A stretch of 49,408 nt of DNA, taken from Chryseobacterium gleum. Its GTDB lineage: Bacteria; Bacteroidota; Bacteroidia; Flavobacteriales_F; PHOS-HE28. The translations under genes and the position numbers were made by a program. The notes below the pieces were generated by a model, which worked only from the letters and a program-made list of their open reading frames with translations, was not told the DNA's origin and ran no database searches. Location: positions 1 through 49,408 of the forward strand of contig CAMCAZ010000022.1 in the NCBI GenBank assembly GCA_945872795.1, given 5' to 3'. This document shows positions 45,694 to 48,405 of this stretch, in pieces; within the stretch, counting starts at the first letter, position 1; each line of letters begins with the position of its first letter.

Positions 45694-47445
45694 ATGAAAA
45701 AATTGGTGGACCCGTCCGAATTGGCCAAGGCCAGTCACATGCGTCCGGGTGACCCGCGGATCTCCCTCCTGACCGAGGTGAGCGGGCTCAAACGCTTGGA
45801 ACGGTTCTACAATTCGGTGGAATCGCTGCACGACCTGGAGTTCGTCGCCGCCGTGTTCCGGAACCTGGAACTGGATATCGAGGTCTCTCAGAAAGACCTG
45901 GACAACATCCCGCGTGAAGGCGGACTGGCCTTCGTGGCCAACCATCCCTATGGTGCGATCGATGGCCTTGCGCTTGTGCACATCCTTGGCCATGTGCGTC
46001 CGGACCTTCGCGTGATGGCCAATTTCCTCTTGCAGCAACTGGAGCCGCTGAAGCACCGGTTCATCGGGGTCAATCCTTTTGAGCAACTGGGTTCGCTCAG
46101 TAGTTTCCAAGGCATGCGTCAGGCCTTGGGTCATGTATCCGAAGGCGGTGCACTGGCCGTGTTCCCGGCGGGGGAGGTGAGCAGCTTCCGCACGGAGCTT
46201 AAGGCGGTCGCGGACCCGCGTTGGAAGACCCCGGCGATCAAGCTGATCCAGCGCGCCAGCGTACCGGTGGTACCCATCTGGTTCGATGGTGCGAACAGCC
46301 TGGTGTTCCAGATGCTGGGGATGATCCACCCGAACCTGCGCACCATCGCATTGCCCAACGAGATGCTGCGGATGCGTGGCCGCTCTGTGCGGATGCGCAT
46401 CGGGAAGCCGATACCCGTGAAGGACATCGCCGGGTTCAACAGTGCCGATCAATTGGCGCGTTTCCTGCGCGCACGCACCTATGCCCTGGGCAGTGGCCTG
46501 CAGGTGAAGCGCGAGTTCTTCACACCATTGCGCTTTCCGCGCCGGCCCAAGGAGTTGGTGGAGCCTCAGGAGATCCCGCAACTGGAGCGCGAGATCGCCT
46601 CCATCGCGGACCTGCGCATCAACCAGCAGGCCGAGTTCGACCTCTATCTCGCCGGCAGTCACCGCATACCGCACATTCTGCGCGAGATCGGTCGGCTGCG
46701 TGAGGAGACCTTCCGTGCCGTGGGCGAGGGGACCAACAAGCCCATCGACCTGGACGAGTTCGACCTGTACTATGATCATCTCTTCCTCTGGGACCGCGAG
46801 AAACGTTGCCTGGTGGGGGCCTACCGTATCGGTGACGGGAAACGGATCATGTCGCGTTATGGCAAACGCGGGTTCTACACCCACACGCTGTTCCGCATGG
46901 ACCGCCACATGGAGAAGGTGCTGCGCAAGAGCTTCGAGCTCGGCCGCTCGTTCATCGCCATGGAGTACCAACGCCAGCGACTGCCGCTGTACATGCTCTG
47001 GCGGGGATTGCTGCTCCACATCACAGCCCACCCGGACCATCAATACCTGATCGGCCCGGTGAGCATCAGCGGCACCTACAGCCGGTTCTCGCGGGCGTTG
47101 ATCATGGAATTCGCCCAGCAGCATCACTATGATCCGGAGATGGCTGCGCATGTGACCCCCCGGAACCGGTTCAAGGTGAAGGCGGAGAAGGCGGATAGTG
47201 AGACCCTGGTGCAGGCGGCCACCGCCGACCTGAAGCGGATGGACCGACTGATCGCGGAAGTGGATCCCAAGGAGACAGCGATGCCGGTGCTCTTGAAGAA
47301 GTATCTACTGCTCAACGCGCGCATCATCGGCTTCAACCGTGACCCGCGTTTCAATGATGCCTTGGACGGACTGATGGTGCTGGACCTCACCAAATTGCCC
47401 GAGCGCACGGTGGAGGACCTGCGCAAAGGCATGTCTGAGGTCTGA
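45694..47445 (+). CDS. olsF: bifunctional aminolipid acyltransferase, OlsF-type
   Basis: A 583-residue fusion of two acyltransferases. The N-terminal half is PlsC/OlsA-like, with the NHPYGAIDG motif (His84, Asp90), a GVNPFEQLG segment, FPAGEVSSF and the VPVVPIWFDG strand. The C-terminal half, from about residue 320, is OlsB/GNAT-like with IASIADLRINQQAEFDLYLAGSHRIP, FDLYYDHLFLWDREKRCLVGAYRI and LIGPVSISGTYS. This is the layout of OlsF of Serratia and Flavobacterium johnsoniae, where the C-terminal part N-acylates an amino acid and the N-terminal part adds the second, O-linked acyl chain. Ornithine is the likely headgroup, but glycine or other aminolipids are also made in this phylum, so the product is uncertain. 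The gene ends one base before a MITE-like element. Confidence 0.88.
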   Translation: MKKLVDPSELAKASHMRPGDPRISLLTEVSGLKRLERFYNSVESLHDLEFVAAVFRNLELDIEVSQKDLDNIPREGGLAFVANHPYGAIDGLALVHILGHVRPDLRVMANFLLQQLEPLKHRFIGVNPFEQLGSLSSFQGMRQALGHVSEGGALAVFPAGEVSSFRTELKAVADPRWKTPAIKLIQRASVPVVPIWFDGANSLVFQMLGMIHPNLRTIALPNEMLRMRGRSVRMRIGKPIPVKDIAGFNSADQLARFLRARTYALGSGLQVKREFFTPLRFPRRPKELVEPQEIPQLEREIASIADLRINQQAEFDLYLAGSHRIPHILREIGRLREETFRAVGEGTNKPIDLDEFDLYYDHLFLWDREKRCLVGAYRIGDGKRIMSRYGKRGFYTHTLFRMDRHMEKVLRKSFELGRSFIAMEYQRQRLPLYMLWRGLLLHITAHPDHQYLIGPVSISGTYSRFSRALIMEFAQQHHYDPEMAAHVTPRNRFKVKAEKADSETLVQAATADLKRMDRLIAEVDPKETAMPVLLKKYLLLNARIIGFNRDPRFNDALDGLMVLDLTKLPERTVEDLRKGMSEV

Positions 47446-47446
47446 G

Positions 47447-47614
47447 CTAGTGTCGCAATCCGTAAGTTCCTTCACCATCTCCGCCCCTCTTTCACCTTCC
47501 TGCCGCGTTGGAACATTTCGTCGTAGCGCCCGCTACGCCGTACATGTTCCGCCTTGCATGAAGACGAAATAGTGGCAGACCTTCAGTGAAGCAACTTACG
47601 GGTTGCGACACTAG
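47447..47614. mobile_element. MITE-like inverted-repeat element
   Basis: Terminal inverted repeats of 29 bp with two mismatches lie at 47447-47475 and 47586-47614; both ends begin CTAGTGTCGCAA. The first four bases CTAG are palindromic and could be a target duplication. An inner hairpin is built from GGAACAT/ATGTTCC (47510-47516 and 47544-47550) and CGTAGCG/CGCTACG (47522-47528 and 47531-47537). There is no open frame of useful size. It fills the whole gap between two convergent genes and its right end supplies the TAG stop codon of the phosphoesterase gene (47611-47613). Confidence 0.85.
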
Positions 47615-48405
47615 GCGTACTCCAGTTCCTTCGCCACGCTGGATACGGTAGGCTTTGCCACCGCAGCCCGGCTCGGTTCATGGAAGTACAGGCTCCACTG
47701 CCCGTCCACATACTCCAGCGCGCTCATGTGCTCGATCCAGTCACCGGAGTTCATATAGTTCACCGAACCCTTGGCGGTGGTGATACGCCGGATCTGTGGT
47801 TGGTGGATGTGGCCACAGACCACGTGCTGGAACCCTTCGTGGACGGCGATGCTGGCGGCGGTCTCCTCGAAGTCGCCGATGTAGGCCACGGCGCGCTTCA
47901 CGCTGTTCTTGACCCGCTTGCTGAAGCTCATCCGGGGTTTGCCCAGAGCTGACAGCACATGGTTCACCACCGTGTTTATCCGGATCAGGAGGTCGTACCC
48001 GAATCCACCCAACTTGGCGAGCCATTTCGCATGTTTCATGCTCGCGTCGAAGATGTCGCCGTGGAAGAACCAGTAGCGCTCGCCCCCGATGCTCAGTGAC
48101 AGGCGGTCGAGCAGTTGCAGCTGACCCAATGAGGCCGGGCTGTAGCGCCGAAGGGCCTCGTCATGGTTACCGGTGATGTAATAGACGGGGATCTTGCCGG
48201 CCATCTTCAGCAGTCGCTTCAATACCTGCATATGGCTTTTGGGGAAGTAGCTCTTCTTGAACTGCCAGATGTCGATGATGTCCCCGTTCAGGACGACCAT
48301 GCGCGGCTTCACTGTGCGGAGGTAGGCGGTGAGCTCCTTTGCACGGCAGCCATAGGTGCCCAAGTGAAGGTCGGAGAGGACCAGGATGTCAATGGGGCGT
48401 TTCAT
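47611..48405 (-). CDS. LpxH-like calcineurin-type phosphoesterase
   Basis: A 264-residue metallophosphoesterase resembling UDP-2,3-diacylglucosamine diphosphatase-type proteins. All metal motifs are present: SDLHLG, NGDIIDIWQ, GNHDE, HGDIFD and CGHIHQP. The ATG at 48405 gives the natural N-terminus MKRPIDILVLSDLHLG; the longer frame upstream is unsupported. In the LpxH reaction, UMP is removed from UDP-2,3-diacylglucosamine to give lipid X for lipid A. No other lpx gene is nearby, and Bacteroidota often carry several LpxH-like paralogues, so the exact substrate is not settled. The last codons run into the MITE-like element, which provides the stop. Confidence 0.85.
   Translation of the reverse strand: MKRPIDILVLSDLHLGTYGCRAKELTAYLRTVKPRMVVLNGDIIDIWQFKKSYFPKSHMQVLKRLLKMAGKIPVYYITGNHDEALRRYSPASLGQLQLLDRLSLSIGGERYWFFHGDIFDASMKHAKWLAKLGGFGYDLLIRINTVVNHVLSALGKPRMSFSKRVKNSVKRAVAYIGDFEETAASIAVHEGFQHVVCGHIHQPQIRRITTAKGSVNYMNSGDWIEHMSALEYVDGQWSLYFHEPSRAAVAKPTVSSVAKELEYA

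Follow-up and report, generated by a model that had tools for sequence, protein, structure and literature searches.

A MITE-like repeat in CTAG targets coincides with TAG stop codons and appears to leave the neighbouring LpxH-like protein untrimmed

Introduction

The TAG stop codon of an LpxH-like gene in the stretch of DNA analysed here (the window, 49,408 nucleotides) overlaps the edge of a short, palindromic repeat. This position raises the question as to whether the repeat has donated the stop and altered the protein, or whether it has inserted at a stop that was already there. The answer depends on where the element ends, on how often other copies fall on stop codons and on where the stops of element-free orthologues lie.

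Results

The gap between the two convergent genes at this locus is filled by a 168-bp near-palindrome (47447–47614) with 29-bp inverted ends. The arms are 93% complementary and enclose a spacer of 110 nt (Table 1). The LpxH-like stop reads CTA on the plus strand and lies within the right CTAG, and a single base (G47446) separates the olsF-like stop from the left CTAG. An earlier note on this DNA had described the repeat, its arms and the position of both stops in the same way, and these observations hold. Its limits for the element hold as far as the arms are concerned; the terminal CTAG, which it had assigned wholly to the element, probably belongs in part to the target, and the remaining 162 bp are too short for a transposase gene.

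Table 1. Coordinates of the repeat and of its two neighbouring genes in the window
Feature	Position	Strand	Basis
Element proper, non-autonomous near-palindrome (putative limits)	47450..47611		162 bp, starts with G, ends with C; 24-copy family and sister-genome boundary
Left inverted-repeat arm, including target C-TA	47447..47475	+	Arm complementarity
Right inverted-repeat arm, including target TA-G	47586..47614	-	Arm complementarity
Left copy of the probable TA target duplication	47448..47449		End comparison of copies
Right copy of the probable TA target duplication, shared with the LpxH-like stop	47612..47613		End comparison of copies
LpxH-like TAG stop	47611..47613	-	TA probably from target, G probably from element end; most orthologues end nearby
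olsF-like TGA stop, outside element	47443..47445	+	Sequence
olsF-like gene, acyltransferase and GNAT domains	45694..47445	+	Pfam PF19576, PF13444; name olsF from the earlier note
LpxH-like calcineurin-type metallophosphoesterase gene, 264 aa	47611..48405	-	Pfam PF00149

Folded as RNA, the 168 nt reach -83.4 kcal/mol, compared to -38.9 kcal/mol (sd 3.7) in 200 shuffles (z -12), and the opposite strand also folds far better than its shuffles (z -10). The stem of this hairpin begins at the stop codon. A search of 47200–47860 against Rfam returned four matches, all far below the gathering score (best 15.8 bits vs 69).

The element is not alone. The genome that contains the window (own genome, G000) holds 24 distinct copies that are 93–100% identical to the window copy, with a mean pairwise divergence of 4.4% among the 22 complete ones (L013 and L028 were omitted from the two-end count). 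Additional finds are a 53-bp mini-copy (L033), which comprises little beyond the two ends and coincides with a predicted gene's stop, and a partial copy at a contig end (L032), which was left out of the counts because its left flank is the same as that of L019. Matches to the family occur in 8 of 58 genomes, the own genome included, all in one genus. In the sister genome (G026) we examined 26 distinct, diverged places, after omitting L151 (the same copy as L131) and the contig-end fragment L172. Among named genomes, an exact 25-base core pattern matched only "Bacteroidetes bacterium isolate BJ7" and "Flavobacteriales bacterium isolate MAG_34", and plasmid and phage searches as well as one exact search of viral contigs gave no match to the element. 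Short length, terminal inverted repeats, multiple copies, TA duplication and lineage-specific insertion make this family MITE-like. The class had been proposed before, together with a search for further genomic copies, which the 24 copies and the mini-copy now supply.

Two places in the sister genome depart from the common form. At a contig end (C8, L172:3168-3296), a copy of the element is interrupted by a different insertion sequence, whose end GGGTTAATGGACAAAA is found again at several other contig ends of this genome; a related form occurs in relatives. This contig end was considered as the end of an autonomous partner and rejected, because it represents another insertion sequence inside a copy, and this end recurs beside many other flanks. 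The copy L150 (C82) combines the conserved core with ends like those of the own genome (TGTCGC...GCGACA, not TGTGGT...ACCACA), and its sequence suggests that different ends may be combined with the same core.

What did the element duplicate on insertion? Because most ends in the own genome read CTAG, these copies by themselves are ambiguous between duplication of CTAG and duplication of TA. Of the 22 complete copies, 12 end in CTAG on either side and 10 have a 4-mer that is changed at one or both ends; as outer bases, 21 show C and all 22 show G. Although only 36 of the 1198 TA sites that lie outside the interiors of predicted genes are CTAG, the element in this genome sits in C-TA-G targets. 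The sister genome is more informative. Among its 18 copies scored at both ends, 15 have G directly after the left TA, and the base directly outside TA on the right varies (G in 8, A in 7, C in 2, T in 1). Both TAs are intact in 7 of these copies, and only 2 carry the same 4-mer twice. Examples of unequal pairs are TTAG...CTAA (L133, L145), CTAG...CTAT (L037) and TTAG...CTAC (L150). With an inner base that is near-constant, an outer base that is variable and few identical 4-mers, these ends indicate that TA is duplicated and that the inner G/C is part of the element, which would place the element proper at 47450–47611. For the own genome this assignment is indirect, by way of the sister genome. 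Our initial model, a 4-bp CTAG duplication, was dropped because the unequal pairs fit TA but not 4 bp. As a separate observation, the 22 complete copies have 44 ends, and at 6 of these (L014, L021, L011, L025, right; L027, L029, left) TA, read outward, has become GA, a recurrence that seems too high for random decay.

With genes predicted by our own codon-usage script, the TAG of a neighbouring gene lies in the terminal CTAG of 12 of the 24 own-genome copies (L010 and L019 by weak calls), or of 10 of the 24 under a stricter gene-calling cut. At L018 the TAG stops of both convergent genes occupy terminal CTAGs, one per end. The sister genome shows such coincidence at 10 of 26 copies, and at L140 and L147 genes end in TGA one base off in addition. 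Stop-coincident insertion is general in the family and accounts for about half of the own-genome copies. Open frames of at least 200 aa that enter element ends in the own genome, the mini-copy included, do so in the TAG frame in 12 of 16 cases (p = 8e-4 against equal use of the frames); of the four off-frame ones, three fall short of the score set for coding frames and one runs antisense to a gene with a better score. At L029, where both end 4-mers have decayed, a weakly called frame runs a few codons into the element. In a Pfam scan of ten flanking proteins, the family domains were present in a BipA, an aldehyde dehydrogenase, an ion channel, a short-chain dehydrogenase and a WYL/WCX protein. 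C-terminal domains are complete in some (BipA_C, Aldedh and, in two, CHU_C), and the CHU_C signal of two secreted proteins lies close to the end (residues 615–685 of 701 and 355–431 of 449). The protein at L026 matched no Pfam family and that at L016 gave only a match below cut-off.

The high share of stops may follow from the target motif. In the window plus 400 kb of the own genome (L193-L212), CTAG is 6-fold depleted (76 in all vs 450 expected, ratio 0.17). GTAG/CTAC is 1.4-fold over-represented in the same sequence; depletion and excess together perhaps reflect restriction avoidance or repair bias. Outside the element, 449 kb of this genome contain 74 native CTAGs, 38 in genes, 21 intergenic and 15 at stops. 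The share of stops among those outside gene interiors (15/36) is similar to that among element copies (12/24; Fisher p = 0.6). Compared to all 74, interiors included, 12/24 is an excess (p = 0.008), and the fit therefore needs the loss of interior hits, which we assume. If interior hits are purged, no preference for stop codons beyond the preference for CTAG is required in the own genome. For the sister genome, with the background taken from the own genome, the stop share (10/26) exceeds that of all TA sites (111/1198, p = 8e-5) and is not clearly above that of YTAR sites (47/190, p = 0.16).

We then turned to orthologues. The LpxH-like gene has matches in 23 other same-genus genomes of 44. 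At 16 of these 23 loci the element is absent and the olsF-like stop lies -8 to 17 bp from the LpxH stop; among the rest, olsF is absent from the fetched stretch in six, and L075 was left out of the stop-gap count because of an unclear read-through. The window protein extends 46 residues past its NSGDW motif, and this tail measures 43–49 residues in 13 of the 16 element-free junction orthologues (53 in L082, 58 in L069 and L070). At the six loci without olsF the tail is 44–45 residues in two and 63–73 in four (L083-L086). TAG serves as LpxH stop at 6 of the 23 other loci. At L068 and L074 a single CTAG, without any element, is common to the stops of the olsF-like and LpxH-like genes, which overlap on the two strands. 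The best LpxH relative is only 82–86% identical, and the relatives include no near-identical empty site. A second locus gives the same picture: at copy L017 the element sits on the bipA/typA stop. BipA has 42 other matches, and in all 29 loci fetched from among these the stop falls within -3 to +1 residues of this position; three of the 29 (L219, L228, L240) end in CTAG with no element within the following 20 bases. For the ion channel at L018, TAG was found at the expected end in 0 of 22 other loci, several of whose translations were read in the wrong frame.

Since element-free LpxH-like and BipA orthologues stop at nearly the same residue, the position of the stop would predate the insertion. 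Judged by these comparisons, the element did not impose the LpxH-like stop and probably trimmed nothing. This outcome contradicts the earlier proposal that insertion changed or trimmed the C-terminus, given that 13 of the 16 element-free tails agree within 3 residues; the observation that its author had named as speaking against it, element-free orthologues with the same C-terminus, is made at both the LpxH-like and the BipA loci. The notion of a donated stop survives for one base. A target TA followed by the element's first base G spells TAG, and, with TA as the duplicated sequence, the G of the present stop is probably the element's own, so that the element would rebuild the third base of a stop whose TA and position are those of the target.

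Discussion

We consider it highly probable that the element is a MITE that was mobilised in trans into a stop-bearing CTAG, that the stop was restored on insertion, and that copies pile up on stops through the rarity of CTAG and through purging. This model builds on the repeat family, on the TA duplication read from comparison with the sister genome, on the stop positions of element-free orthologues and on the coincidence of copies with the stops of predicted genes. The mover would be a TA-duplicating transposase, presumably most like IS630/Tc1-mariner, which in this lineage uses C-TA-G targets. The insertion point would have been a CTAG at the junction of the convergent genes, presumably empty at the time in this very lineage and already holding the LpxH-like TAG. 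Duplication of TA, and restoration of TAG by the terminal G of the element, would then have kept both the protein and its stop, and the distance between the two stops would have grown from about 1 bp to 165 bp. Copies would accumulate on stops since CTAG is scarce, since stops account for many of the CTAGs outside gene interiors, and since interior hits would presumably be purged by selection.

The opposite reading, in which a CTAG-carrying element inserts randomly near gene ends, imposes a new stop and trims or changes the protein, can draw on the TAG at the element edge, on the G that is probably the element's own and on the weakly called frame that enters the decayed end of L029 by a few codons. 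Random insertion predicts equal use of the three frames, and this prediction conflicts with the bias toward the TAG frame; the similar ends of element-free LpxH-like and BipA orthologues conflict with trimming, and we regard stop donation as highly improbable. It is also quite unlikely that the hairpin has been kept as a functional 3′-end element of the flanking genes, either a bidirectional terminator or an mRNA stabiliser. The very stable fold on both strands and the start of the stem at the stop codon would suit such a function, as would the enrichment at convergent junctions: genes were called on either side of 20 own-genome copies, of which 7 lie between convergent genes, compared to 44 of 339 background gene pairs (p = 0.014; the other pairs are 254 tandem and 41 divergent), and in the sister genome 11 of 21 are convergent (p = 4e-5). 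Paired positions also vary together: 15 of 63 pairs are changed on both sides, in a comparison of 20 selected sequences with the structure taken from one of them; 0 of 500 shuffles score as high and all slid controls fall below this value. However, 23 of 500 shuffles reach the count of further pair types, and 9 of the 15 co-varying pairs lie in the outer helix, as recognition by a transposase would also give. Transposase recognition of both ends explains the covariation as well as RNA function does. The other 13 own-genome copies (12 tandem, 1 divergent) do not separate convergent genes, the element is missing from the olsF-like/LpxH-like junction of 16 relatives, and not one intrinsic-terminator-like site (GC-rich stem followed by a U-run) was detected in 47300–47760, which speaks against the earlier idea of a hairpin that terminates both genes.

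The nature of the mover allows for a further alternative, namely mobilisation by an IS5-type transposase that duplicates the 4-bp target YTAR/CTAG. This arrangement is reported for MITEPsy1, which duplicates CTAG or YTAA (excerpt of PMC3189936), and the 12 own-genome copies with CTAG at both ends would fit it; the unequal end pairs at L133, L145, L037 and L150 fit TA and not 4 bp, and we therefore find this mover unlikely. A mover of the IS630/Tc1-mariner type is likely, although we do not assign the element as an IS630-mobilised member. IS630-family genes exceed the cut-off in 9 of 45 genomes, and none of the 12 IS630 loci scanned (9 over cut-off, with 4 further over-cut-off places and contig gaps outside the scan) has matching ends; one end match with 4 mismatches at L158 was taken as chance. 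An end-pattern search of the own genome for a full transposon returned element copies and two chance-level matches only, so that the full transposon with the same ends that the earlier note had suggested looking for was found neither there nor at the scanned loci. IS481 elements target CTAG as well; as movers they were rejected, with none of 45 genomes exceeding the NF033577 cut-off. One relative in the own genome with a PF13683 match was inspected as an IS481 candidate, and, judged by eye, we take this transposase to be IS3-like.

The preferred model of trans-mobilisation into CTAG could be extended by the idea that the ends are adapted to stops. With G (or A) as the first base at both ends and TA duplicated, any TAA or TAG target would yield an in-frame stop on both sides, and selection could have favoured such stop-healing ends. 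We hold this extension to be doubtful. Were it true, landing on gene ends would be harmless, even on a stop common to two convergent genes, TAA stops would be converted to TAG, and gene termini would form a safe harbour, much like tRNA 3′ ends for integrating islands.

Several known repeats share parts of this behaviour. Nezha and Correia elements are similar to IS630-driven MITEs such as RUP. In Streptococcus pneumoniae, RUP is a short, multicopy repeat with terminal inverted repeats and TA-containing targets, for which IS630-Spn1 is the proposed mover (excerpt of PMC2229807). The present element resembles RUP in each of these structural features. Unlike RUP, it has no end-matched IS630 at the 12 loci scanned, it uses C-TA-G targets in the own genome, and its terminal G would rebuild TAG. 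TA duplication is described for IS630 in an excerpt of PMC2170065, and the title of a study cited there (Tenzen and Ohtsubo 1991) gives CTAG as the preferred target of IS630 of Shigella sonnei. Both traits match our observations, although IS630 of S. sonnei is an autonomous insertion sequence with a transposase. MITEPsy1 of Pseudomonas syringae, a 100-nt MITE at CTAG or YTAA, also inserts at CTAG; it differs by a 4-nt duplication and a possible IS5-type origin (PMC3189936, same excerpt).

The closest precedent for the stop-codon habit comes from BOX repeats of S. pneumoniae, which encode the stop in 36 of 58 overlapping CDSs without strong evidence for truncation (excerpt of PMC3049150). Repeats that supply stops without clear truncation are thus already known, and the enrichment at convergent junctions has likewise been reported for pneumococcal repeats in the same source. 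In contrast to the present element BOX repeats are modular, and the excerpt offers no mechanism for their coincidence with stops. A search of the open-licence literature with a few phrases found no account of the logic by which TA plus a terminal G restores a stop. Our analysis adds a quantifiable reason for this habit: in the own genome a target motif, its rarity in genes and a compatible end suffice, if interior hits are purged. The same idea can be tested on other elements that duplicate TA and begin with G or A. For annotation it follows that a stop within a repeat, as in BOX and in the element described here, does not by itself signify truncation.
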